Of a DNA stretch of 64,000 bases, positions 2,436-33,316 are shown piece after piece. The notes beneath the pieces were generated by a model, which did no database searches, was not told the origin of the DNA, and worked only from the letters and a program-made list of their open reading frames with translations. Numbering within the stretch: the stretch's first letter is position 1; every line of letters starts with the position of its first letter. Source of the stretch: Bacilli bacterium (GTDB lineage Bacteria > Bacillota_I > Bacilli_A > RF39 > UBA660); assembly GCA_017941235.1 (NCBI GenBank), contig JAGAWU010000024.1, forward strand, positions 1-64,000. The letters are read 5' to 3'. Position numbers and translations under genes: made by a program.

Positions 2436-3779
2436 ATGTCAAAACAATCAATTGATTATTTCGACGTTTTAGAGTTAAATGAGTTGGAACTTTCATATGA
2501 ATCAGCTATGGAAATATTACGTACTCATTTAGATGTACTTATTTCAAATTTCGAAATGGTAAATGGTGGTACTAAATCTGTAGAACATTATGGACATCGT
2601 TTAAAAAAAATGTCTAGTGCTATTAATAAGTTAAGGAAAAAGAAATGTGAAATTAGTGCTATCGAAATAGAAAACAATTTAAATGATATGGTTGGAATTA
2701 GACTTGTTTGTCCATTTATAGATGATGTTTATGATATGGTTGAACTAATTAAAGATAGTGATTTAATTGTTGTAGATAAAGTCAAAGATTATATAAAAGA
2801 ACCTAAAAAGTCTGGGTATAGAAGTTGCCATTTACTTGTTAGAGTTCCAGTACCCGTAGGTAATAGTATCAAAATGGTGAAGGCAGAAATTCAAATTAGA
2901 ACACTTGCTATGGATGCATGGGCTGCTATGGAACATAGAATTAAGTATAAACCTACAGGTTCTAAGGCGTTAAATGAAAGACAAAAGAAAATGCTTAAAA
3001 CTTGTGCTAAAGCATTTGATTTTATTGAAGAGTATATGACTAATCTTCTTCCAACTACTGAGCTTACAGTAAAAAACAAAAGAGATGCAGTAAAAAAATA
3101 TATACCAGATTTTGATGAAGATGAATTAAAACAATTTGAATTTGAATATAAGTCTGCTATTAAAATATTAAATTCTCATTTAAAAGTTAGAATTAATAAT
3201 AATGATTATATTAAGGAGACTAAAACAGTAGAACATGCTAATTCACGTTTTAAAGATATGTCTAGTATTTATCGTAAATTATCTGAGAAGGGTATAGATT
3301 TAACACTTGATAATGTTAGAGAAAATGTAAATGATGTTGCTGCTGTAAGACTTGTTTGTCCATTTATAGATGACGTTTATGATTTAGTTAAATTAGTTAA
3401 AGATAGTGATTTAATTGAAGTTTATGAAGAACGAGATTATATGGATAAACCAAAAGAATCTGGATATAGAGGATATCATTTGCTTGTAAAAGTACCTGTA
3501 CCTATTGGTGATGATATTAAAATGGTAAAAGCAGAAATTCAAATTAGAACACTTGCTATGGATGCATGGGCTGCTATGGAAGAAAGAATAAAATATAATC
3601 AAGATTATTATTTTACTGAAGAACAAAAAGCGATGTTAAAAATATGTGCTGATACTTTTCAAGATGTAGAAGTATATATGAACAGTTTACTTAATCCTAC
3701 AGAAGATGATAATTCTAAACTTGATGAATACTTTGAAAGTGTTCAGTATCCAAAAAAATATATAAGAAAAATAGGTTAA
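2436..3779 (+). CDS. Tandem-duplicated RelA/SpoT-type alarmone synthetase (two SAS domains in one chain)
   Basis: 447 residues made of two homologous RelA_SpoT synthetase domains (about 14-205 and 228-420). Copy 1 has 'HRLKKMSS' (54-61), the D84-containing 'NDMVGIRLVC', 'SGYRSCH' (126-132) and 'EIQIRTLAMDAWAAMEH' (151-167). Copy 2 has 'SRFKDMSS', D300 in 'NDVAAVRLVC', 'SGYRGYH' (342-348) and the same EIQIRT block at 367, but the final MEH is MEE. Known single-domain small alarmone synthetases (RelQ/YjbM, RelP/YwaC) transfer pyrophosphate from ATP to GTP/GDP to make (p)ppGpp and act as tetramers. Both copies keep the Asp and Glu that align with catalytic residues, so both could be active, but the H-to-E change in copy 2 suggests divergence. 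No hydrolase (HD) or TGS domain is present. Confidence 0.85.
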   Translation: MSKQSIDYFDVLELNELELSYESAMEILRTHLDVLISNFEMVNGGTKSVEHYGHRLKKMSSAINKLRKKKCEISAIEIENNLNDMVGIRLVCPFIDDVYDMVELIKDSDLIVVDKVKDYIKEPKKSGYRSCHLLVRVPVPVGNSIKMVKAEIQIRTLAMDAWAAMEHRIKYKPTGSKALNERQKKMLKTCAKAFDFIEEYMTNLLPTTELTVKNKRDAVKKYIPDFDEDELKQFEFEYKSAIKILNSHLKVRINNNDYIKETKTVEHANSRFKDMSSIYRKLSEKGIDLTLDNVRENVNDVAAVRLVCPFIDDVYDLVKLVKDSDLIEVYEERDYMDKPKESGYRGYHLLVKVPVPIGDDIKMVKAEIQIRTLAMDAWAAMEERIKYNQDYYFTEEQKAMLKICADTFQDVEVYMNSLLNPTEDDNSKLDEYFESVQYPKKYIRKIG

Positions 3780-3848: not shown

Positions 3849-3873
3849 ATTTGTGTTAATTGGAGGTGTTAAT

Positions 3874-5004
3874 ATGATTTATTTAGACTATAGTGCTACT
3901 ACATTTGTTAATGATGAGGTTCTTGATACTTATAATAAAGTTACAAAAAGATATATTGGTAATCCTAATTCATTACATAAGTTAGGTTTAGAAGCTAAAA
4001 AAATAATTGATGAATCTACAAATCAAGTTAAGAAAATTTTAAAAACAGATAAAGATGTTATATATACAAGTGGTGCTACTGAATCTAATAATTTAGCTAT
4101 ATTTGGTGTAGTTAACAAGTATAAAAACAGAGGTAAGCATATTATCACAACTCGACTTGAACATTCATCTATAAATGAACCGTTAAAAAAATTAGAGAGT
4201 GACGGGTATAAAATTAGTTATGTTTCATTAAATGATGATGGTACTGTTAATTTAGATGAACTTAATAATTTATTATGTGATGATACTATACTTGTTACTA
4301 TTGCTACTGTTAATAGTGAGATAGGAATTATGCAAGATTTAGATAAAATAAGTGATATAGTTAAAAAATATCCAAAAGTTATTTTTCATACAGATGCTAC
4401 TCAAGTTATTGGTAAAAAAAGTATTAGTTTTGACAATGTAGACTTAGTAAGCATGTCTAGTCAAAAATTTTATGGTATGAAAGGTGTTGGATGCCTTTTA
4501 AAAAACAAGAATTTATTACTTGAACCAATTATATATGGTGGTAAATCAACTACTGAATTTAGAAGTGGTACTCCTGCAACACCTTTAATAGTAAGTTTTG
4601 CTAAAGCTTTAAGATTAGCTTATATAGATTTAGATGAAAGATATAATTATGTTTTTGAATTAAGTAATTATACAAAAAATAAATTATCTGAAATTAGTGG
4701 AGTTATTTTAAACAGTACAAGTAAATCCATTCCACATATAATTAATTTTAGTATATCTAATATTAAAGCTGAAACACTTCTTCATGCACTTGAAGAAGAA
4801 GAAATATTTATATCAACTAGGACAGCTTGCAATAAAAGTGATGATTATAGTGAAGCTGTATTTGCGCTTACAAAAGATAGAGAAAGAAGTATGCATAGTC
4901 TAAGAGTAAGTCTTTCATATCTAACAACTAGGGAAGAAATAGATAAATTTATAGAAGTATTAACTTTAAAAATAGATAGTTTAAACAAATTAAATTATAA
5001 ATAG
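3874..5004 (+). CDS. Cysteine desulfurase (NifS/IscS family)
   Basis: 376 residues; PLP-dependent class V aminotransferase fold that releases sulfur from cysteine as an enzyme persulfide. The start 'MIYLDYSATT' is standard for the family and follows ggaggtg. Visible motifs are 'SGATESNN', 'HTDATQ', the PLP lysine in 'SSQKFYGMKGVG', and a candidate persulfide cysteine in 'STRTACNK' (families usually read SxGSACSS, so this loop is atypical). It stands alone between its own promoter and a terminator, with no IscU, SufU, MnmA or ThiI gene adjacent. Its sulfur acceptor (Fe-S assembly or tRNA thiolation) therefore cannot be told from context. Confidence 0.88.
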   Translation: MIYLDYSATTFVNDEVLDTYNKVTKRYIGNPNSLHKLGLEAKKIIDESTNQVKKILKTDKDVIYTSGATESNNLAIFGVVNKYKNRGKHIITTRLEHSSINEPLKKLESDGYKISYVSLNDDGTVNLDELNNLLCDDTILVTIATVNSEIGIMQDLDKISDIVKKYPKVIFHTDATQVIGKKSISFDNVDLVSMSSQKFYGMKGVGCLLKNKNLLLEPIIYGGKSTTEFRSGTPATPLIVSFAKALRLAYIDLDERYNYVFELSNYTKNKLSEISGVILNSTSKSIPHIINFSISNIKAETLLHALEEEEIFISTRTACNKSDDYSEAVFALTKDRERSMHSLRVSLSYLTTREEIDKFIEVLTLKIDSLNKLNYK

Positions 5005-10336: not shown

Positions 10337-13300
10337 ATGAATGATATTAGTAATTTACAAAATTTATTAAATAGTGCGACTGATAATTATCAACAAATAT
10401 ATGATGAAATTCAAGAAATTCGGAATAGAATTTCTGATTTAGGTGATATTCCTGGTCCACATACTGATGAAAATCCACGAAATGCATCACAAGATAAATT
10501 TGATGAGGAAAAACAAAAATTAAATGAAAAATATGAAGAGTTGAAAAATGCTGGTGAGAAAATTGCGGAAATTCAAAACAAAATTGATGAATTGGAAAAA
10601 GCTTCTAATTTGAATCTTGTGAATGAACAACCTATTCAAGCACCAGTAATAGATAATGATGCTGCACCAGTTGTAGGTGATGAACAATCAGTTCAAACAC
10701 CAGTAATAGATAATAATTCAACACCAGTTGTAGGTGAAAGGCAACCAATTCTAACTCCAGTAATAGATAATAATGCTGCACCGGTTGTAGGTGAAGGACA
10801 ATCAGTTCAAACACCAGTAATAGATAATGATGCTGCACCAGCTGTAGGTGATGAGCAATCAGTTCAACCACCAGTAATTGATAATAATTCAACACCAACT
10901 GTAGGTGATGAGCAATCAGTTCAAACACCAGTAATTGATAATAATTCAACACCAGTTGTAGGTGATGAACAACCAGTTCAAACATCAGTAATTGATAGTG
11001 ATTCAATACCAGTTGTAGGTGAAGGACAATCAATTCAAACTCCAGTAATTGATAGTGATTCAACACCAGTTGTAGAGAAAGAACAATCAGTTCAAACACC
11101 AGTAATTGATAATAATGATGCACCAGTTGTAGGTGAAGGACAACCAATTCAAACTCCAGTAATAGATAATAATGCTGCACCGGTTGTAGGTGAAGGACAA
11201 TCAGTTCAAACTCCAGTAATAGATAATAATGCTGCACCGGTTGTAGGTGAAGGACAATCAGTTCAAACACCAGTAATTGATAGTGATTCAATACCAGTTG
11301 TAGAGAAAGAACAATCAGTTCAACCACCAGTAATTGATAATAATGATGCACCTGTTGTAGGTGAAGGACAACCAGTTCAACTACCAGTAATTGATAATAA
11401 TTCAACACCAGTTGTAGGTGATGAACAACCAGTTCAAACATCAGTAATTGATAATGATGCTGCACCAGCTGTAGGTGGTGAACAAACTATTCAACCACCA
11501 GTAATTGATAATGATGCTGCACCAGTTGTAGGTGAAGGACAACCAATTCAAACTCCAGTAATAGATAATAATTCAACACCAGTTGTAGGTGAAGGACAAT
11601 CAGTTCAAACACCAGTAATAGATAATGATGCTGCACCAGCTGTAGGTGGTGAACAAACTATTCAACCACCAGTAATTGATAATAATTCAACACCAGTTGT
11701 AGGTGATGAACAACCAGTTCAAACATCAGTAATTGATAGTGATTCAATACCAGTTGTAGAGAAAGAACAATCAGTTCAAACACCAGTAATTGATAATAAT
11801 TCAACACCAGTTGTAGGTGATGAACAAAATATTATGCAAGAATCTGGAGAAAAAGGTAATCTGCCAATAAGAGGAGATGATGGACAAATTATGGATAATA
11901 ATATATTAGATAATGATGTAGTAGTAACATCTAATGAAAATAAAACTATTCTTGAAGGTACTATTGCTCCAGGAATGCTAACACCAGAAGAAGAATTTAA
12001 AAGAGTAACTGGACAAGAATTTGATCCTGAAAGATATGAAATTCTATATCATGGTGCTGATAACGATTTTGCTGCTGATGAGCCATATGTTCCTTATACT
12101 ATTGTGGAAAAAGTGCTTGATGATGAGATTACAAAAACAGATAATAGTGAGGAAGAAATAGAAAAAGCTTATAGAACAGCTGTTGATGATGCGATTGCTT
12201 TATATAATCTACCAGAACCAACTGATAGTTATGAAAGAAAAGCTTATAATGAAGAATATATAGCTAGAAGTGAGGAAATTCGAAAAGCTTTAGAAATTTT
12301 GACACCTGAAAAAATAAAAGAAGCAGAAGAAGAATTTAAGAGAGTAACTGGACAAGAATTTGATTTTGATAAGTATGAAATTGAATCGACTGATACTGAA
12401 AATTATGGAGAAAAAGTAGATATAAAAGATTTATCAGATGACGAGTTGGATAAAGAAATAGAAGATTTTGAAAATGCTGATACAGATATTTCTTTCACTG
12501 ATCCTAAATATCAAAGATATACAGAATTAAAAAATGAAAAAGAAAAAAGATTAAATAGTAATCAAAATCATGAAGAAAAATCTTATTCTGAAATGAATGA
12601 TGAAGAACTTGATGAAAGTATTAAACAAAAGTGGGCAAAATTAAATCCTATATATGGTGAAATAGACGAAAATGATCCTCGTTATATTGAATATTGGAAA
12701 TTAATGCGTGAAAGAGAAAGAAGAAATAAAGAAAAAGAGGAAGCTAATAAAAAGGTTGATGAAAAAGAAAATGATGATAAAGAAAATGATGAAAAAAAGA
12801 ATGATGGTTGGGAAATTTCATCAATAGAGGTTCCTTTAGATATTCTTAAAAAGAATAAAAATAATACAAATGATAATAATAATGTAAATAGCAATAATAA
12901 TCCAACTAATAATAATACAAATAATAGCAATAATCCAGTTAATAGTAATCCAACTAATAATAATGTTCCTGTTAATAATTCTTTAAGTAATGAGACTGTA
13001 AAGATTATGTTTATGAATGATGGTAAATTAATTCCTAATTATGGAAACATTGTGATTGAAAAAGGTGGAACTATTAAACATGGTCCTGTTATTGATCCTG
13101 TTCCTTTAAATAAGAAAGGTAAACCAAAGAAGTTAACTGCTAAAACTTTCTCTCATTGGGAAGATCAATATGGTAATGTAGTGGACTTCAGTCAACCAAT
13201 TACTGAGGATATGATTTTAACTGCTGCTTATAAGTTTGATAAGAAAAAAGCAGTTTCTATTGGTTTAGGTGCTGCTATTGGAGCACTTGCGTATGTTGCT

Positions 13301-14071
13301 GATCTTGCAATCCCTGTACCTGTACCTGTAGTATCTATGATTGGTGCAGCAGGAACTAAAATAGCTAATCATTTTGTAAAGAAAAATTTAAATAATTTAA
13401 CTGTTGATAATATGAATGAAGCTAGAACTATTACTGCTGTGGATGATATTCCTGAAGAACTTGCTCAAAATATTCTTGAACAAAAGAAAAAAGGATATAT
13501 TTCTACATTCCTTAAAACAGCAACTGTTGCTTGTACTATTTCTTCAGCTGCTCATTTATTAAAGGCTTCACATGCAGCTGAGAAGGGATTAGATAATGTT
13601 AAATCAACTCCTAATAAGAATATAACAAATGGTAGTGATGGACTTACTAATCCAGATCCTTCTCATAATATGGTTAATAGTAATGATCCTATTATTGGTC
13701 AGACTACTAATCCAACACCTACTAAAATAAGTTCGCCAACATCAACTCCTAATACTGTTTCTACTGATGTATTAGGTGGATATGAACCTACTGGAGAAGT
13801 TTATAAGTCAGCTGCTGATGCTTTAAGTGGTACTAATGGTTCTGCTGCTTATGCTCCATCTTTTGCTGGAGAAGAAACTTTTGAAGCATATAATGCAGTA
13901 ACTGGTGCAAGACATGGTATTTCTCGTGGTCAAGAGTTATCTGAAATAATGAAAATGGTTGGTGCAAGTGATCCATCACAAGTTGCAGTAAATGTTATGA
14001 ATGCTGATGGAGTTCCACTTACATGGCAGTCTATGTCTTCTATGGCTGAAACTGTTACAAAAACTTTATAG
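10337..14071 (+). CDS. Large repeat-containing membrane/surface-type protein (21 x 19-residue repeats)
   Basis: 1244 residues. Residues 1-95 are a coiled coil ('IRNRISDLG...KLNEKYEELK'). Residues 97-495 are 21 tandem 19-residue units of consensus EQSVQTPVIDNNSTPVVGD. Residues about 546-666 form a module ('TPEEEFKRVTGQEFD...') nearly identical to part of the protein at 31415, followed by a degenerate restart (FKRVTGQEFDFDKYEI). Then come acidic/Lys-rich coils and an Asn-rich linker at about 840-885. An InlB B-repeat-like domain follows ('IMFMNDGKLIPNYGN...HWEDQYGN'), then two hydrophobic regions (about 970-1010 and 1055-1075) and a C-terminal Ser/Thr/Pro-rich tail. No signal peptide or LPXTG is seen, so localisation is uncertain. 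Function unknown; the repeats resemble stalk regions of surface proteins. Confidence 0.65.
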   Translation: MNDISNLQNLLNSATDNYQQIYDEIQEIRNRISDLGDIPGPHTDENPRNASQDKFDEEKQKLNEKYEELKNAGEKIAEIQNKIDELEKASNLNLVNEQPIQAPVIDNDAAPVVGDEQSVQTPVIDNNSTPVVGERQPILTPVIDNNAAPVVGEGQSVQTPVIDNDAAPAVGDEQSVQPPVIDNNSTPTVGDEQSVQTPVIDNNSTPVVGDEQPVQTSVIDSDSIPVVGEGQSIQTPVIDSDSTPVVEKEQSVQTPVIDNNDAPVVGEGQPIQTPVIDNNAAPVVGEGQSVQTPVIDNNAAPVVGEGQSVQTPVIDSDSIPVVEKEQSVQPPVIDNNDAPVVGEGQPVQLPVIDNNSTPVVGDEQPVQTSVIDNDAAPAVGGEQTIQPPVIDNDAAPVVGEGQPIQTPVIDNNSTPVVGEGQSVQTPVIDNDAAPAVGGEQTIQPPVIDNNSTPVVGDEQPVQTSVIDSDSIPVVEKEQSVQTPVIDNNSTPVVGDEQNIMQESGEKGNLPIRGDDGQIMDNNILDNDVVVTSNENKTILEGTIAPGMLTPEEEFKRVTGQEFDPERYEILYHGADNDFAADEPYVPYTIVEKVLDDEITKTDNSEEEIEKAYRTAVDDAIALYNLPEPTDSYERKAYNEEYIARSEEIRKALEILTPEKIKEAEEEFKRVTGQEFDFDKYEIESTDTENYGEKVDIKDLSDDELDKEIEDFENADTDISFTDPKYQRYTELKNEKEKRLNSNQNHEEKSYSEMNDEELDESIKQKWAKLNPIYGEIDENDPRYIEYWKLMRERERRNKEKEEANKKVDEKENDDKENDEKKNDGWEISSIEVPLDILKKNKNNTNDNNNVNSNNNPTNNNTNNSNNPVNSNPTNNNVPVNNSLSNETVKIMFMNDGKLIPNYGNIVIEKGGTIKHGPVIDPVPLNKKGKPKKLTAKTFSHWEDQYGNVVDFSQPITEDMILTAAYKFDKKKAVSIGLGAAIGALAYVADLAIPVPVPVVSMIGAAGTKIANHFVKKNLNNLTVDNMNEARTITAVDDIPEELAQNILEQKKKGYISTFLKTATVACTISSAAHLLKASHAAEKGLDNVKSTPNKNITNGSDGLTNPDPSHNMVNSNDPIIGQTTNPTPTKISSPTSTPNTVSTDVLGGYEPTGEVYKSAADALSGTNGSAAYAPSFAGEETFEAYNAVTGARHGISRGQELSEIMKMVGASDPSQVAVNVMNADGVPLTWQSMSSMAETVTKTL
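10625..11821 (+). repeat. 57-bp coding tandem repeat array, 21 units
   Basis: Twenty-one complete units of 57 bp (19 codons) with no spacer and a twenty-second that breaks down after EQNIM. Units vary mainly at codons 11-14 (NNST, NDAA, NNAA, NNDA, SDSI, SDST) and at 18-19 (GD, GE, EK, GG). Multi-unit blocks recur (units 15-16 versus 18-19), which suggests unequal exchange of groups of units. The array keeps a long open frame on the opposite strand by chance. Confidence 0.95.
11972..12334 (+). repeat. Shared 363-bp coding module, copy A
   Basis: Differs from 31451-31813 at 7 of 363 positions (about 98% identical) with no gaps. It starts at ggaatg and ends at gaagaagaa, after which the two genes are unrelated. 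Copy B lies 19.5 kb away in the same orientation. Confidence 0.95.
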
Positions 14072-20814: not shown

Positions 20815-20863
20815 GTTTTATGTTATACTTTTAATAGGGTAGTATATAGTGACGAGGTGTCTT

Positions 20864-23800
20864 ATGAGATATAAAAAAAATAAAAAGAAATTAACCTTAT
20901 TATTTGTAGCATTTATAATTTTAATAGGAGTAGGATATGCTTTTTTATTTAGAAATCCTAAGATAAATGGATTAAGTGGAGTTAAAACTGGAAAATGGGT
21001 TATATATTTTGATAGAGTCCAAAATGAGAGTGGAGTAGTATCTACTGAAACTAAAATAACTGATAATAAAAAGCAGGTTGATTTTAATATTAATTTGAAA
21101 AAACCTGGTGATTATTATGAATTTGATGTAGATACAGTTAATGATGGTAATATTGATGCTATGATTGATTCGGTTGAATTTGGTCAAATAGATAATACTA
21201 TTGAACCTTATTTAGATTTTGATGTTTCTTATAAAGATGGAACTTCTATAGAAAAATGTGATTTACTTCCTAAGAATTCCAGAAAGACAATTACTGTTAA
21301 AGTAAAAATGGATGAAGGACTTACTGAAGAAGAATTAATTACTCAAACTAAAAACTTAAACTTGAATTTTAAAATTAATTATGTACAAAAAGATGTATGT
21401 GAAAACAGGCCAACTTTAATAGTTGATCCTAACGGTGGTAAATATAATGGTACAAGAAAGTTAACTAAGATTAAGGTTAATAAGAATAGTAATACAGTTT
21501 TAGATGAGCCTTTAAGAACTGGTTATAATTTTTTATACTTTACAGATAATAGTGGAACTGAACTTCCAAAAGATCAAGAAGGTAAAACTACAGTGCATGT
21601 AGGAAATACAGATGTAAAAGTAACAGCTAATTGGGAAGAAATACCAATAATTTCTAAATATGAATTAACTATTAATCCTAACGGAGGAGTTTATAATAAT
21701 ATAACTCAAAATACTATAGTTTCTTTGGAGGAAGAAGAAACGTTAACATTAGATGAGCCAACTAGAGAAAACTATGTATTTGAAGGTTGGGAGGAAGTAA
21801 CTGAAACAAATAGTTTAAGTGGTAATATTGTTACAATGCCATCTGAACCAGTTACAGTAAGAGCTATATGGAATTCAGTTGAAAATTATGTAGCTAGAAT
21901 AAATACAAAATATTATACAACAATACAAAAAGCATTTGATGCAGCAGTAGATGGGGATACAGTTCACTTACTAAAATCAACTACAGAAAATGGTAATAAT
22001 ACTAAGAATATAACATTTAATTTAGGTGGATTTACAGTAACAGGAACTATAACAAATAGTGGAACTATAACAGTAGATAATGGTAGAATTGAAAATATAG
22101 TATCTAGTCCATTTGTTAATACTGGTACAGTAAATGTAGGAACTCATGATGGAAACATGGTTGCTGATAGTATAGTAATATTTGGTGGAGAACTTGTTAA
22201 TGGTCTTACTCAAAATGGAACATTTAACTTCTATGATGGATATATAGAGGGTAAACTAGCAGTAACTGGTGGATATAATGAACTTGAAACTGGATACTAC
22301 TATATAGTAGCTCATGATAATGATAACAATTGTCAAAAAGCATATCTATCACCAGATATAGATGCTGTTGCTAGAGTTGTTGTAAATAATAATGATATTT
22401 ACTTTAAATTACTTCAAGATGCAATTGATATGACAACAAATGATAATCCTAATGTCTATGCGATTAAAGATTTTGAAAACTCTACTATATTAAACATATC
22501 CGATAATCAAAAATTGGTATTTGATTTAAAAGGATTTAATGTTAAACAAGGTTCTAAAATAACAAATAATGGAACATTTACTATAATAGATACTGCTTCT
22601 ACTAAGGGAAGTCTTTCAGTTGCTATTGCTATAGAAAATAATGGAACACTTAATTTAACAGATGTTACTATGTCACAGTCTACGACTGATGGTAATATTG
22701 TAGAGAATTCTGGTAATATTAATTTGTCAAAAGCTAATTTAACTGCTAAAAATGGTAATTCTTTATATATTACTGGTGGTGGAACAATTACTGTTGATGA
22801 AAACACTTCACTTTCAGCTACAGAATATGGAATATATAACAATTCATCTGAACCTGTTACTATAGTTGGAGGAAATTTAACCGGAGTTTATAATAATGGT
22901 ACAGAGTTAACTATTAATGGTAGTAGTATTACTAATATTGGAAATAAAAGTTATGCAGTTTATAGTGCGGATGGAACACTTAATTTAAATAACGTATCTG
23001 TTGATTCATCAAAAAATGGTATTTATATAAAAAAGGGTAATTTTAATATAGTGGGTGGAACTTTTGATTCTCAGCAAAATACTATATATACTGTGTCTGG
23101 TACAACTAATATTAGTATTAAAGATTCATATATTACAACAAGAGCTGGTTCTTCTTTTCAAGCTATTTATGCTATAAATTCAAGTTCAGGTACTTGTGTA
23201 ATTTCAAATACTACTATTGATGGTAAAAAAACTGCCGCTTTATCTGGATATCTTTACGGATTAACAATTAAGGACAATTGTATTATTAAATCACAAAATA
23301 GGTTGGCTGCTAGTATTAGTAGTTCTGGTAATGTAGCTGCAATTATTAAAGATTCAGAATTTGAGTCACAAGATGGTTACGGATTACAAGTTAGTGGAAA
23401 GATTGAAATAGATAATGCTAGTATTACTTCAGAAAATAATCATGCAGTTTATAGTGCTGGTGGTGGTACAATTTCTATTAAAAATAGTAATATTACATCA
23501 AATTCTAAAGTTGGGTTATATAATTATTCAACTGCTATATTTAATATTTTACCTGGAAATGTTATAAAAGGTAAGACATATGGTGTTCAGAATTATTCTA
23601 CTGGAACTATTAATTTAACTGATCAAGAAGATACAATAGATAGTACTTCTCCAGTTCTAATAGGAGAAATGTATGGATTATATGTTAATAATGGAACTGT
23701 AAATTTCTATGATGGTATACTTAAAGGTAAAACAGATGGTTATTATGGTGTTATAACAAATGTTGCTGCTGATTCAACATATAATAATGGTATCGAAATT

Positions 23801-26800
23801 ATAAATGAAGAGCAGTATAAAACTGTTACATTAAAACAGCAAACTAAGTTTTTACAAGTTGTAGGTGGTGAAAGATATTCTTCACTTCAGGATGCTTTTA
23901 ATGCAGTTGGAACAAGTGGTACTATTAAAGTTGTAGAAGATGCTTCATCTACTGAAACTTCATCTATTGCTTCTGATCAAAATATTATTTTTGATCTTAA
24001 TGGTCATACTTTAGAACTTACTAAGACTATTACTAATAATGGTACTTTAACTTTAGAAGATAATTCTGAAAATGAATCTGGATTACTTGCTAATTATGTG
24101 GATACTTTAATTGAAAATAAAAATATGGTGACTATTAATAGTGGTGCTTATCAGTCTGGTAAGATGGCTATTAGTCAATCTAATAATACTGCTAAGGTTC
24201 GTGTAAATAGTGGTAAAGTCTTAGGAACTGAGTATTCGATTTATTCAACTGGTAGAGCAGAAAATGCTGTATATATTGAAGATGGTGAATTTAATTCTAT
24301 TTATGCTAGTAGCTCAAGTAGTACTACAATTAAAGGTGGTATAATAAATTCTCCAAAAAATACAGGTTTATATGTTGGAAAAGATTCATACATAGAAAAT
24401 TTAGTTATAAATCATAGTGGTACTGCTAATGGTAGTTATGCAATTACTGTAGGTGGTGGTAATGATATAACATTTAAAAATGTTACTGTAAATAATACTA
24501 GTGGTTACAGTTCATTTTCTAAGGGGAGTTGCAATAAATTAACTATTGATGGTTGCCAATTTAATTCTAAGAAGAGTGCATTCTATGCTAGTGGTGGAAG
24601 TTCTACTGATGAAATTTATATTAAAAATACTATTTTAACCTCAAGTGAATCTAGTGGTATAGTTGTTGGTATGAATTCAAGCGGTTCTTCTAATAATATT
24701 GGAATTATATATATCAAAGATAATACTCAAGTGTTAGGTAAAACATATGGTATAAAGTTTAATATAAATTCACGAGTTATTTTAGGTGAAAATGGATCAG
24801 GTGTTGTTACTACTAGTCCTCTTATTAAGGGTGAAAAATATGGAATTTATTCTTATAATGATACTGGTATTATTGAATTCTATGATGGTATAGTTAAGGG
24901 TAAAACAGATAGTACTATTGTTTATCCTGATATTATTGAAAATGGCTATGATATTAAATTTGATACTGAAATGATTGATGGAGAGGAGTATAAAACCGCT
25001 ACAATAGAAGCACAACCTGAAGATTTTTTACAAGTTGGAAATTCTACATTTAATAATTTACAAGATGCAATAGATAGTATAGATACTGTAGGAGTTATTA
25101 ATGTTATAAGTAATGGTACTTTAGTAAATTCTTCTGAAATTCCTAGTGGTAAAACTATTACACTTGATTTAGGCGTAAATACGCTTACTACTGTAAATAC
25201 AATTACTAATAAAGGTACATTAATAATGAAAGATAGTAGTCAAGATAATACAGGTACTATTATTTCTAAGAAAAATATTTTAGTTGAAAACTTAGGCCAA
25301 GTAACTGTTGAATCTGGTACTTATACTTCTGTTGCTAGAACTTCAAAATATAGTAATATAATTCACCAAGGAACTGAAACAGCAGTTATTACAATTAACG
25401 GTGGTTATTTATCTGGTGGTAATACTGGTGCTAATTCTTCTTTATCAACTACAATTTATAATGATGGTGGAATCTTAGAAATAAATGGTGGAACTATTAC
25501 TAATAGTACATGTGCTGCAATTCATATTTATAAGGGTACTACAACTATTAATGATGTTAATAATACAGAAATACTTAGTGATAAATCTAGTAGTAATTCT
25601 ATTAATTGCTATGGTGATCTTACTATAAATGGTGGTACTTTTAAAAATACTGTAAGTATTAGTATTTCTAGTGGTGGCAGAGGAGTATTAAATATGTATG
25701 GCGGTAGCATAACAACTAGTTCAGGTTATGGAATTAATAATTCTGGTACTTCTAGTATATATGGTGGTTCTGTTAAGGGAAAGACATATGGTATTTATAC
25801 TTCATCTTCTGCTTTAGTAATAGGAAAAGATGATTCTGTTATTAGTACTAGTAGTCCTATAATAGAAGGTGAAACATATGGTGTTGGATGCTATTCTTCT
25901 AATCAGGTAGAATTTTATGATGGTATAGTAAAAGGTAAAACTGGAAGATTTCAGTATGTCCCTAAAACTATAGCATCTGGTACAAATTTAATTGAGGATA
26001 CTGAACTTGACCAAGATAGTCAAACAATTTTAACTGCTTATCTTGAAAAACAAATAGATTTTATTGAAAATGTAAATAAATCAAAAGTTTATAAGAATTT
26101 TAAAACTGCAGTTAGTGAAGCCTCAGCTGGAGATTTACTTAGATTAATAGATAGTTCTTCAAACTTTGAAGATGTAACTATTGATAAAAACTTAACTATT
26201 GACTTAAATAATAATACGTTAACTACTTCAAAAACAATTGTTAATACAGCAAATTTAACTATTAAAGATGATAGTACTCAGAAAAATGGTATGTTAACTA
26301 CAGGTAGTGGTGTAAATATTATTAATAATTCTGGTACATTAATTGCAAAAAATATTCATCTTAGCAGTGTTTCTACAATAACTGATACATATGTAATAAA
26401 TAGTACGGGTAAGGTAGATTTAACAAATGTTTCTATTAATTCAACTTCTGCAGGTGGAATACGAAGTTTTAATGACTTAGATTTAAATAGTTGTGATATA
26501 AATACATATACTTATTCTATTTATTCATATGCTGGTGATAATGATATTAAATTAAATATTTTAGATAGTAATACTTATAGTAAAGATTATAGCTCTATAT
26601 ATTCTTCTACAGGATTATCTTATAAATATAATTTTTTACTTGATGGTGGTACTTATAAAAGTAATAGAGGTATTACTAGTATATTAGCTTTATCTACTCA
26701 GACCTCTAATAGTGAGGCAATAATAAAGAATGCTAATTTTGCTTCTAATAATACTGTAACTGTAAATGTTAATTCAACTGTTGATAATATTACTACTATA

Positions 26801-27454
26801 TCTGATATTTCATTTGGAAATTATGAGCATAATTTTACTAATTCAACAGTTTCATTAGTACGAAATAGCGGAGATTTAACTATTAATGATGTAACAGTAA
26901 ATGGTAGTTATGGATATGAGGGTGGTGTATTTAAAAATACTGGTAATGTTGATGCTACTGATTTAAATATAATAACTACTAATTCTCAAATTGCTCTTAA
27001 TAATGAATCTGGAGTATTTAATTTCAATAGTGGTCAAATTACTAATACATCTTCATCTTATGGTAATTATTGTGTGTATATAAAAGATGGAACTTTCAAC
27101 TTAAAGAGTGGAACTATAAAAAATAATAGTACTGGTAGTAATGATTCATATGGTATTTATATGAAAGATGGTACTCTAACTATAGGTACATATTTTGGAG
27201 GAGGAGTAGAGTCAACAGATGTTTCTACAACTAATCCTCACATAGAATCTATTAATACTAATTCTCGGGTTAACTATAATGGTATTGGTGTTAAAGTTTT
27301 GGCAGGAACATTTAATTATTATGATGGTTTAATTATAGGTTCAACAGAAGCTAAACCTGAAGCTCCTACTGCAATAGAACCAAGATATAGGGTATTTAAT
27401 ACTACTGATATTAATGGATATGATAATTGTGTTTTACAGTATGTACCACAATAA
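20864..27454 (+). CDS. Giant beta-helix surface protein with InlB-type repeats
   Basis: 2196 residues; start ATG 20864 chosen for GAGGTG upstream (a GTG 15 bp earlier overlaps that site). An N-terminal signal/anchor helix 'LTLLFVAFIILIGVGYAFLF' is followed by a domain of about 150 residues ('GKWVIYFDRV...FDVDTVNDGNIDAMI') resembling TasA/camelysin-like exported proteins. Two InlB B-repeats follow, starting at 'LIVDPNGGKY' and 'TINPNGGVY'. The remainder is five successive right-handed beta-helix modules. Each opens with 'Y..LQDAFDAV'-type sequence and 'FDLNGHTL...TITNNGTLTL', then Ser/Asn/Gly-rich rungs, and closes with an FYDG(x3)KGK motif (five copies). No LPXTG or C-terminal anchor is visible, so the N-terminal helix may hold it. 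Likely an adhesin or polysaccharide-interacting protein; specificity unknown. Confidence 0.8.
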   Translation: MRYKKNKKKLTLLFVAFIILIGVGYAFLFRNPKINGLSGVKTGKWVIYFDRVQNESGVVSTETKITDNKKQVDFNINLKKPGDYYEFDVDTVNDGNIDAMIDSVEFGQIDNTIEPYLDFDVSYKDGTSIEKCDLLPKNSRKTITVKVKMDEGLTEEELITQTKNLNLNFKINYVQKDVCENRPTLIVDPNGGKYNGTRKLTKIKVNKNSNTVLDEPLRTGYNFLYFTDNSGTELPKDQEGKTTVHVGNTDVKVTANWEEIPIISKYELTINPNGGVYNNITQNTIVSLEEEETLTLDEPTRENYVFEGWEEVTETNSLSGNIVTMPSEPVTVRAIWNSVENYVARINTKYYTTIQKAFDAAVDGDTVHLLKSTTENGNNTKNITFNLGGFTVTGTITNSGTITVDNGRIENIVSSPFVNTGTVNVGTHDGNMVADSIVIFGGELVNGLTQNGTFNFYDGYIEGKLAVTGGYNELETGYYYIVAHDNDNNCQKAYLSPDIDAVARVVVNNNDIYFKLLQDAIDMTTNDNPNVYAIKDFENSTILNISDNQKLVFDLKGFNVKQGSKITNNGTFTIIDTASTKGSLSVAIAIENNGTLNLTDVTMSQSTTDGNIVENSGNINLSKANLTAKNGNSLYITGGGTITVDENTSLSATEYGIYNNSSEPVTIVGGNLTGVYNNGTELTINGSSITNIGNKSYAVYSADGTLNLNNVSVDSSKNGIYIKKGNFNIVGGTFDSQQNTIYTVSGTTNISIKDSYITTRAGSSFQAIYAINSSSGTCVISNTTIDGKKTAALSGYLYGLTIKDNCIIKSQNRLAASISSSGNVAAIIKDSEFESQDGYGLQVSGKIEIDNASITSENNHAVYSAGGGTISIKNSNITSNSKVGLYNYSTAIFNILPGNVIKGKTYGVQNYSTGTINLTDQEDTIDSTSPVLIGEMYGLYVNNGTVNFYDGILKGKTDGYYGVITNVAADSTYNNGIEIINEEQYKTVTLKQQTKFLQVVGGERYSSLQDAFNAVGTSGTIKVVEDASSTETSSIASDQNIIFDLNGHTLELTKTITNNGTLTLEDNSENESGLLANYVDTLIENKNMVTINSGAYQSGKMAISQSNNTAKVRVNSGKVLGTEYSIYSTGRAENAVYIEDGEFNSIYASSSSSTTIKGGIINSPKNTGLYVGKDSYIENLVINHSGTANGSYAITVGGGNDITFKNVTVNNTSGYSSFSKGSCNKLTIDGCQFNSKKSAFYASGGSSTDEIYIKNTILTSSESSGIVVGMNSSGSSNNIGIIYIKDNTQVLGKTYGIKFNINSRVILGENGSGVVTTSPLIKGEKYGIYSYNDTGIIEFYDGIVKGKTDSTIVYPDIIENGYDIKFDTEMIDGEEYKTATIEAQPEDFLQVGNSTFNNLQDAIDSIDTVGVINVISNGTLVNSSEIPSGKTITLDLGVNTLTTVNTITNKGTLIMKDSSQDNTGTIISKKNILVENLGQVTVESGTYTSVARTSKYSNIIHQGTETAVITINGGYLSGGNTGANSSLSTTIYNDGGILEINGGTITNSTCAAIHIYKGTTTINDVNNTEILSDKSSSNSINCYGDLTINGGTFKNTVSISISSGGRGVLNMYGGSITTSSGYGINNSGTSSIYGGSVKGKTYGIYTSSSALVIGKDDSVISTSSPIIEGETYGVGCYSSNQVEFYDGIVKGKTGRFQYVPKTIASGTNLIEDTELDQDSQTILTAYLEKQIDFIENVNKSKVYKNFKTAVSEASAGDLLRLIDSSSNFEDVTIDKNLTIDLNNNTLTTSKTIVNTANLTIKDDSTQKNGMLTTGSGVNIINNSGTLIAKNIHLSSVSTITDTYVINSTGKVDLTNVSINSTSAGGIRSFNDLDLNSCDINTYTYSIYSYAGDNDIKLNILDSNTYSKDYSSIYSSTGLSYKYNFLLDGGTYKSNRGITSILALSTQTSNSEAIIKNANFASNNTVTVNVNSTVDNITTISDISFGNYEHNFTNSTVSLVRNSGDLTINDVTVNGSYGYEGGVFKNTGNVDATDLNIITTNSQIALNNESGVFNFNSGQITNTSSSYGNYCVYIKDGTFNLKSGTIKNNSTGSNDSYGIYMKDGTLTIGTYFGGGVESTDVSTTNPHIESINTNSRVNYNGIGVKVLAGTFNYYDGLIIGSTEAKPEAPTAIEPRYRVFNTTDINGYDNCVLQYVPQ

Positions 27455-31414: not shown

Positions 31415-33316
31415 ATGAGAAATGAAGTTTTAAGTGGATATCAAGGTTATGGAATGCCAACACCAGAAGAAGAATTTAAAAGAGTAACTGGACAAGAATT
31501 TGATCCTGAAAGATATGAAATTCTATATCATGGTGCTGATAACGATTTTGCTGGTGATGATCCATATGTTCCTTATACTATTGTGGAAAAAGTGCTTGAT
31601 GATGAGATTACAAAAACAGATAATAGTGAGGAAGAAATAAAAAAAGCTTATAGAACAGCTGTTGATGATGCGATTGCTTTATATAATTTACCAGAACCAA
31701 CTGATAGTTATGAAAGAAAAGCTTATAATGAAGAATATATAGCAAGAAGTGAGGAAATTCGAAAAGCTTTAGAAATTTTAACACCTGAAAAAATAAAAGA
31801 AGCAGAAGAAGAAATTGCTAGAAAGACTAAAAATAGGTCTAATACTAATTTTGATGATGTTACTGAAAATGAAAATGTAATCCAACCTGAGGTGTCTTCT
31901 GAAGATGAAAATGTGGTTGAACCTGAAATTTCTAATGAAGAGAATGAGGTAAAAGAAGAGACTAATACAAATGATTCAAAGACTAAAAATAAATATATAA
32001 TTGACCCTAATGGTATTATAGTTAATTTTCCTTCTGATAATGAATTTAAAGATGCTATTAGTAATTATATCAATAATACAAATGAAAATACTGATCATGA
32101 AGAAATTATAAGAAATAATGATGATTTAGATAATAAATTTGAAAAATATGTACCAAAAACTCATAAAAACCAAAGAGTTGGAGTTTTAAAAAGGGTTGTT
32201 TCAAGGTTTAACTTAATACCTTTAATTGCAACTGCTGCTGCACTTGTTGTTTCTGCCTTTGGAAGATCTTCTATTAGTAAGGCTTCTAAGGATAAAGAAA
32301 TAAAAGAATTTACTAAGAATTCAGCTTCTTATTCAATTTCTACTGAAGATAAGCAAGAACCAATATATGAGACTAGAGAAGAAGCTATACAGAAAACTAT
32401 TGATGGAATGAGAACAGGAGATAAAATTCATGTTGATAGTGGAGTAGATTATCATTATTCAAGTGATTATGAATATGCTGGGTATGATAGAACTGGTAAT
32501 TTTGGTTCTGAAATAAGAAAAGATGGGGATTACACATTAGATTATGTTTCTATAATTGATCCTTCAACTGGTTTAATTAGAAATGTTGAATATGATAAAG
32601 GCAAAAATGTAGAAGACTTTATTAATGATACAGCTAAAGATATAGGAATTGATCGTGATAAATTAGAAGTTAAAATTGAAATAGGTGGACCTCAAACAGG
32701 ATGGATTGATTATGATGATTATATATCTTGTATCGATAATGGAAGTATTAAACAAGAGGTTGTTGAAACAAAAATTGTTCCTGGAACACAAATAGTTGGA
32801 AAACAATATAATTTTGATTCTAAAGTTACATTTATTGATGAGAATGGTAAGAGTGCTAAAGTTGATTTTAAGAAAGATGATGGCTCTTATTATAAAGTTG
32901 GAGAGAATGTTACTGCTTCTAATGGTCAAACATATAGAATTGATAAATTTGATATTGATACTGAAACTAAGACTGAGAAAGTAGATAGACCTTCTAAAAT
33001 GTCTATTCCTCACAACAAAATAACATTTGGACTTTCAAATATTTCATTATTGGAAGCTTTAGGTGCTGCTGCAATATCACTTATTGGTATTCCTTTAACT
33101 TATAGAAGAAAAACAGAAGAAAAGGAAATGACAGATGTTGAATTTAGGAATATAGTAGGATTTGGTGGTTATGAGCCTAAGAAAAATGATCCTGAAAGTT
33201 ATTATGGTAGTTGGTGGGATGGTTTAACTCATAACAAGGAAACAATTAAATTTATTCCTGATGATAGTAAAGATACATTTTCGTTTGATGATTTTGAGAA
33301 TAAGAAAACTAGATAA
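31415..33316 (+). CDS. Two-TM accessory protein sharing a module with the large repeat protein
   Basis: 633 residues. Residues about 13-133 are the 'TPEEEFKRVTGQEFD' module that is 98% identical at DNA level to the gene at 10337. Then follow an acidic linker with three short E-N-V-V/I-Q/E-P-E repeats, a TM helix at about 269-288 ('LIPLIATAAALVVSAFG'), an extracellular-size beta-rich segment (about 290-535) with no known fold, and a second TM helix (about 545-565). The C-terminus is hydrophilic. The predicted topology places the middle domain on one side and both ends on the other. Start ATG 31415 follows taggag. Probably an operon with the small gene at 33331. Function unknown. Confidence 0.65.
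   Translation: MRNEVLSGYQGYGMPTPEEEFKRVTGQEFDPERYEILYHGADNDFAGDDPYVPYTIVEKVLDDEITKTDNSEEEIKKAYRTAVDDAIALYNLPEPTDSYERKAYNEEYIARSEEIRKALEILTPEKIKEAEEEIARKTKNRSNTNFDDVTENENVIQPEVSSEDENVVEPEISNEENEVKEETNTNDSKTKNKYIIDPNGIIVNFPSDNEFKDAISNYINNTNENTDHEEIIRNNDDLDNKFEKYVPKTHKNQRVGVLKRVVSRFNLIPLIATAAALVVSAFGRSSISKASKDKEIKEFTKNSASYSISTEDKQEPIYETREEAIQKTIDGMRTGDKIHVDSGVDYHYSSDYEYAGYDRTGNFGSEIRKDGDYTLDYVSIIDPSTGLIRNVEYDKGKNVEDFINDTAKDIGIDRDKLEVKIEIGGPQTGWIDYDDYISCIDNGSIKQEVVETKIVPGTQIVGKQYNFDSKVTFIDENGKSAKVDFKKDDGSYYKVGENVTASNGQTYRIDKFDIDTETKTEKVDRPSKMSIPHNKITFGLSNISLLEALGAAAISLIGIPLTYRRKTEEKEMTDVEFRNIVGFGGYEPKKNDPESYYGSWWDGLTHNKETIKFIPDDSKDTFSFDDFENKKTR
31451..31813 (+). repeat. Shared 363-bp coding module, copy B
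   Basis: Matches 11972-12334 with 7 substitutions and no gaps; flanks are unrelated. Confidence 0.95.

Follow-up and report, generated by a model that had tools for sequence, protein, structure and literature searches.

Introduction

The closest described relative of the protein reported here is RelP (SAS2, YwaC), a small alarmone synthetase (SAS) with crystal structures from S. aureus (6EWZ/6FGJ) and B. subtilis (6FGK). Each RelP chain has a single domain, and the chains assemble into a homotetramer with a central cleft and four equivalent sites; a proline in the G-loop marks the enzyme and makes the loop rigid (PMC5794853). In the S. aureus protein (SaRelP) His190 binds the ATP ribose, and Arg91 and Ser84 bind phosphates (PMC5794853). 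In RelQ (SAS1, YjbM) the G-loop proline is missing and a cleft binds pppGpp (PMC5794853). RelQ, too, is described as a homotetramer of single-domain chains with equal sites. Chains that combine a synthetase with a second domain are represented by RelZ of Mycobacterium smegmatis, a dual-domain SAS in which the partner is RNase HII (PMC7591505), and by long RSH enzymes such as RelA, where the HD domain is inactive (PMC3153485).

Near the start of the stretch of DNA analysed here (64,000 nucleotides, hereafter the window), an open reading frame with an ATG start at 2436–3779 (+ strand) encodes a protein of 447 residues with two complete RelP-like (p)ppGpp synthetase domains. It resembles RelP in synthetase fold, sequence, G-loop proline and the ATP and Mg residues of its N-terminal domain, but differs in fusing two domains, the second of which lacks ATP-site residues. 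Fold and motif set are shared with RelQ as well, albeit at lower scores. RelZ has RNase HII where the window protein has a second synthetase, and long RSH enzymes, which likewise hold a catalytic and a degenerate domain in one chain, pair hydrolase with synthetase rather than two synthetases. A described double-SAS class, an objection foreseen in the first-pass annotation of this DNA, was not found in the searchable open-licence literature. Domain databases may contain uncommented entries for chains in which RelA_SpoT occurs twice.

Results and discussion

Architecture of the double synthetase

The first-pass annotation, made from the sequence alone, had proposed two full domains in one chain, and the domain searches bear this out: RelA_SpoT (PF04607) matched the protein twice, separately, and each half on its own scored far above the cut-off of 27 bits (104 and 94 bits). 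Both halves also match NF053588 (YjbM-type GTP diphosphokinase), at 135 and 132 bits, and the whole chain does so at 255; all three scores lie under the curated cut-off of 320 bits. A Pfam domain search of the chain returned no HD, TGS, ACT, RNase HII or any further domain. The main features are as follows.

2323–2351, + strand: promoter-like site, TTTACT, 17 nt, TATAAT, with TG ahead of the second hexamer; suggestive only
2416–2424, + strand: ribosome-binding-like GAAAGGGTG ahead of the ATG at 2436, from sequence
2436–3779, + strand: double small alarmone synthetase gene, 447 aa, from domain matches and orthologues in L006 and L007
2466–3050, + strand: N-terminal synthetase domain, about residues 11–205, from domain match, alignment and model
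3051–3113, + strand: linker, about residues 206–226, from the AlphaFold model; model confidence between the domains is low
3114–3695, + strand: C-terminal synthetase domain, about residues 227–420, with a degenerate active site, from domain match, alignment and model
3853–5004, + strand: class-V aminotransferase / cysteine desulfurase (NifS-like), likely start ATG 3874

A promoter scan of the region found sites of the kind at 2323–2351 no more often than in shuffled sequence.

The best PDB sequence matches of both halves are the RelP crystal structures of S. aureus and B. subtilis, and both halves carry the RelP-type G-loop proline (SaRelP Pro146). The structure prediction that had been suggested as a check gave the same picture. 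An AlphaFold model of the single chain, with 15 double proteins in the input alignment, has two complete synthetase folds at about residues 11–205 and 227–420 (mean pLDDT 85.8, pTM 0.83), with a weak linker near residues 211–220. The nearest solved folds are again RelP of S. aureus and B. subtilis (TM-score 0.89, normalised by target, for one domain).

Distribution and independent origins

A search for the double-domain architecture in Bacillota was performed on overlapping samples of genomes from the family (291), order (385), class (395) and phylum (392) of the window, complemented by whole genera; the genomes are incomplete MAG-type assemblies. It returned 16 double synthetases, all in four genera of the family of the window, which comprises small-genome Bacilli, and none outside that family in the class- and phylum-wide samples. 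Doubles were present in 3 of 4 genomes of the window genus (g1), 3 of 11 of g64 (one cut by a contig end), 5 of 7 of g144 and 5 of 12 of g59. In g144 at least two of them (L032, L033) lie directly behind rel.

In trees of the separated halves, g64 contributes one clade that unites its N and C halves (support 97/80; 97/85) and g144 another (98/90; 97/90), both apart from g1. Topology tests on g1, g64 and g144 rejected grouping every N half together (p-AU 3.6e-43) or every C half together (p 1e-5), whereas the evidence against one clade of all halves was modest (p 0.026). A fusion ancestral to all genera is thus rejected on the tree separation and the topology tests, modestly so for the all-halves clade. 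Because g1, g64 and g144 form separate clades and the constraints were rejected, at least three fusions appear independent, and the sequence comparison supports at least three independent events in the family. The doubles of g59 sit on long branches, and we are unsure of their origin. In one g59 locus (L036) a gene for a lone response-regulator receiver domain (896–1297) lies immediately ahead of the double gene (1357–2709), whose C half is strongly degenerate.

Asymmetric loss of active-site residues

Residues are given in SaRelP numbering, which equals the window N-domain residue plus 23 and was checked against Asp107, Tyr151, Glu174 and His190 (PMC5794853). We compared 19 active-site or near-site positions, each with at most one exception among 62 single-domain relatives; the list was picked after a first residue table had been seen, and four of the positions are absent from the cut N half of L086. 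Across the 16 doubles, 5 changes fall in N halves and 58 in C halves. The C half is the worse one in 15 of 16 proteins, with one tie. At 75 moderately conserved background columns, in contrast, N and C divergence is about equal. A mechanical list of all 25 near-invariant columns gave the same direction, with a mean of 2.06 changes in N halves against 5.13 in C halves and the C half worse in 13 of 16. With no more than about four duplications to count, a shared direction in all of them has a probability of about 1 in 8 by event counts alone, and the weight therefore lies on the column counts. Two exceptions should be noted: none of the listed changes occurs in the C half of G951 (L093), and the N half of G001, a species of the window genus, carries S153G.

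The window protein illustrates the asymmetry. All 19 counted residues are canonical in its N-domain, where the ATP and Mg residues R78, K80, S84, K88, D107, R112, E174 and H190 are all present, in agreement with the earlier view of copy 1 as canonical. The proposal of an altered second site also stands: in copy 2, MEH has become MEE and GYRS has become GYRG, with the Asp and EIQIRT retained. His190 and the Arg91 place are both Glu, and the other ATP and Mg residues are kept. The altered codons, all identified by alignment, are listed below by residue number of the window protein.

3285–3287, + strand: E284 codon, at the SaRelP Arg91 place (ATP phosphate contact); Glu in copy 2 of 3/3 species, variable and mostly R/K in singles
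3342–3344, + strand: A303 codon; Gly in 61/62 singles
3471–3473, + strand: G346 codon (GYRG); Ser in 62/62 singles
3582–3584, + strand: E383 codon, at the SaRelP His190 place (ATP ribose contact); His in 62/62 singles, Glu/Asp in copy 2 of 3/3 species
3597–3599, + strand: N388 codon; Lys in 62/62 singles

Within the genus, copy 2 has His190 replaced by Glu or Asp (3/3 species), Lys195 by Asn or Leu (3/3) and Gly110 by Ala (2/3), with Glu at the Arg91 place (3/3). GYRG was rejected as a defining change, because S is found in copy 2 of the sister species G003 and G in copy 1 of G001. What sets copy 2 apart across the genus, on the alignment, is the replacement of His by Glu/Asp and of Lys by Asn/Leu, plus Glu at the phosphate-contact position. 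The other genera lost different sets of residues from their C halves: Ser153 (to Ala) and Gly110 in g64; Ser84, Ser153, Lys195 and once His190 in g144; Arg112, Ser153, His155 and Gln176, mostly together with His190 and Tyr194, in g59. The Mg ligands D107 and E174, as well as K80, K88, G150 and Y151, are retained in every half.

This retention, along with the conservation of C halves between species, could be explained by two active domains with divided roles, the second preferring another substrate pair (e.g. GMP, an adenine acceptor or another donor) and widening the product range; Glu or Asp could bind ribose hydroxyls. Still, the C-domain changes hit residues invariant in 62 singles as well as ATP contacts (His190, and the Arg91 place, where Glu stands). 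This favours weakened donor binding over a new acceptor, and in g59 EIQIRT has in addition lost its Q and GYRSxH its H. We consider a division of roles unlikely.

The repeated loss of active-site residues could alternatively reflect a second domain that is a mere spacer or relic, i.e. the fusion fixed the oligomer and the C half decays under weak constraint. Such decay is distinctly improbable, given that between close species the two halves are conserved to about the same degree (C vs. N identity 68 vs. 65% in g1, 62 vs. 60% in g64) and that reading frame, fold and Mg ligands are intact in all 16. A rough dN/dS estimate for the window and G003 gave 0.24 for the N and 0.40 for the C half, with dS near saturation and an experimental routine.

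Proposed working of the double protein

We regard it as reasonably probable that the N-domain makes the alarmone and that the C-domain, conserved but impaired in catalysis, serves as its partner in a form of the RelP tetramer built from two chains. A RelP-like SAS gene would have been duplicated in tandem and fused in place in the ancestor of three species of the window genus. With its full active site, the N-domain would transfer pyrophosphate from ATP to GDP or GTP (or GMP). The C-domain, having kept the fold, Mg ligands, core lysines and guanine-binding Tyr and lost ATP-site and other residues, would most likely be a poorly active or inactive partner, retained by selection to complete the oligomer; perhaps it binds nucleotide and tunes the N-domain. 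Paired in this way, two chains would give a pseudo-tetramer of RelP-like shape in which two sites are good and two degenerate. Some activity may persist in the C-domain, since Glu or Asp could still be able to bind the ribose of ATP. We infer N-domain activity, C-domain impairment, two-chain assembly and regulation alike from sequence.

Taking the genera together, we read the pattern as repeated evolution of a catalytic N-domain joined to an impaired but selected C-domain. A further-reaching version holds that an asymmetric protein of catalytic domain and pseudo-synthetase arose at least three times, its second domain being a conserved regulatory part (e.g. a nucleotide sensor) that controls the first, and that these proteins form a previously undescribed, self-regulated class of SAS; this is offered tentatively, as a plausible extension rather than our expectation. 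Repeated fusion that spares one active site would amount to a natural experiment on catalytic versus structural or sensing roles of subunits, with ready-made proteins to test, and uncultured small-genome Bacilli would gain a distinct stringent-response enzyme.

Probable ancestral locus and age of the fusion

Two sister species of the window share the double protein. The G003 orthologue is 67% identical and has both flanking neighbours in common with the window; that of G001 is 52% identical and adjoins the same NifS-like gene. In G002, the fourth species of the genus, the gene at the probable ancestral locus encodes a single domain and is closed by a stop codon and then a hairpin-plus-T-run; the upstream genes are those of G001. 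A scan of genome contigs returned the two sister loci and one weak match in a Chitinophaga MAG, nothing else. Single SAS genes adjoin NifS in other genera too (L035, L037, L040, L042, L043, L049), so the NifS-adjacent locus is probably ancestral and the fusion arose in place. The proximity of a NifS-like cysteine desulfurase (window 3874–5004) to the SAS gene in several genera of the family may hint at a functional link.

When the halves are placed in a tree, the G002 single branches as the sister of all six from the genus (95/82; 96/88 with more rows in the alignment). The N halves of the window, G003 and G001 group together, as do the C halves of the window and G003, with the C half of G001 basal. 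This grouping places the fusion before the split of the three species.

A toxic SAS from a toxin–antitoxin or phage-defence pair is highly improbable at this locus. The protein does match a candidate defence model (PADLOC PDC-S33, 171 bits), which looks like a general synthetase-domain match, but its sequence is RelP-like and single relatives occupy the same NifS-linked place in other genera. The neighbours are VanZ-like, lipoprotein-like and cysteine desulfurase genes, with no small antitoxin-like gene among them, and the toxSAS hallmark of a paired antitoxin gene or fused antitoxin domain was found neither at the locus nor in the chain. A mobile or viral origin was likewise rejected: phage and plasmid matches (about 80% query cover) place both halves on one single-domain gene of about 600 bp, and the matched spans on viral contigs are all too short for a double.

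Identical patch and divergence of the halves

Within the gene, two segments of 51 bp had been reported to be identical, which is exact:

2883–2933, + strand: 51-bp patch, copy 1, with copy-2-type residues; probably the conversion recipient, from sequence comparison
3531–3581, + strand: 51-bp patch, copy 2, its end directly abutting the E383 codon, from sequence comparison

When synonymous codons were chosen independently at the codon usage of the window, an identical run of 51 arose in 0.06% of simulations, a value that somewhat overstates the surprise because the halves share more codons than expected outside the patch as well (47 vs. 38.4, sd 3.5). The patch of copy 1 reads A-EIQI with copy-2 codons in the window and G-EIQV in copy 1 of both sister species. 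Of the two explanations first put forward, recent duplication or gene conversion, the latter is supported: the data fit local conversion of copy 1 by copy 2 in the lineage of the window. The patch stops just short of codon 383, the position at which copy 2 lost the active-site His, so the difference between the copies there was preserved.

The patch is a local feature and gives no date for the duplication, since identity between the two halves is no higher than 54% in protein and 67% in DNA. Orthologous halves of the window and G003 are closer to each other (65–66% for N, 68% for C) than the two halves within one protein, and the N and C lineages span species. The duplication is therefore not recent, contrary to the other of the two explanations. 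An assembly artefact, raised beforehand as a possible objection, or a very recent tandem duplication has the 51 shared base pairs in its favour and can be dismissed almost entirely, the halves being just 54% identical, the same architecture recurring in the assemblies of both sister species (G003, G001) and the N and C halves forming separate lineages.

Host genome setting

The host is a gut-type bacterium, and its genome (about 91% complete) encodes one full-length Rel (HD, synthetase, TGS, ACT) and one shorter HD–synthetase–TGS protein; no other SAS was found in it. The full Rel includes an HD hydrolase, so that whatever the double SAS makes can be broken down. Most genomes of the family hold either one SAS or none, so the double takes the place of the usual enzyme instead of adding to it. 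The second Rel-like protein (490 aa; G000:C46:41512-41823; L003:1084-2556, − strand) comprises HD, synthetase and TGS domains without ACT. It has QARIRT in place of EIQIRT and may be a hydrolase only; frames of 480–496 aa resembling it occur in related genomes.

Elsewhere in the window, a protein of 1244 aa (10337–14071) is built from many near-identical repeats of about 20 residues (PVIDNN..PVVGEGQSVQT), and a shorter related protein is encoded at 31415–33316. A protein of 2201 aa (20849–27454) with a hydrophobic start and long repetitive stretches is likely a surface protein.
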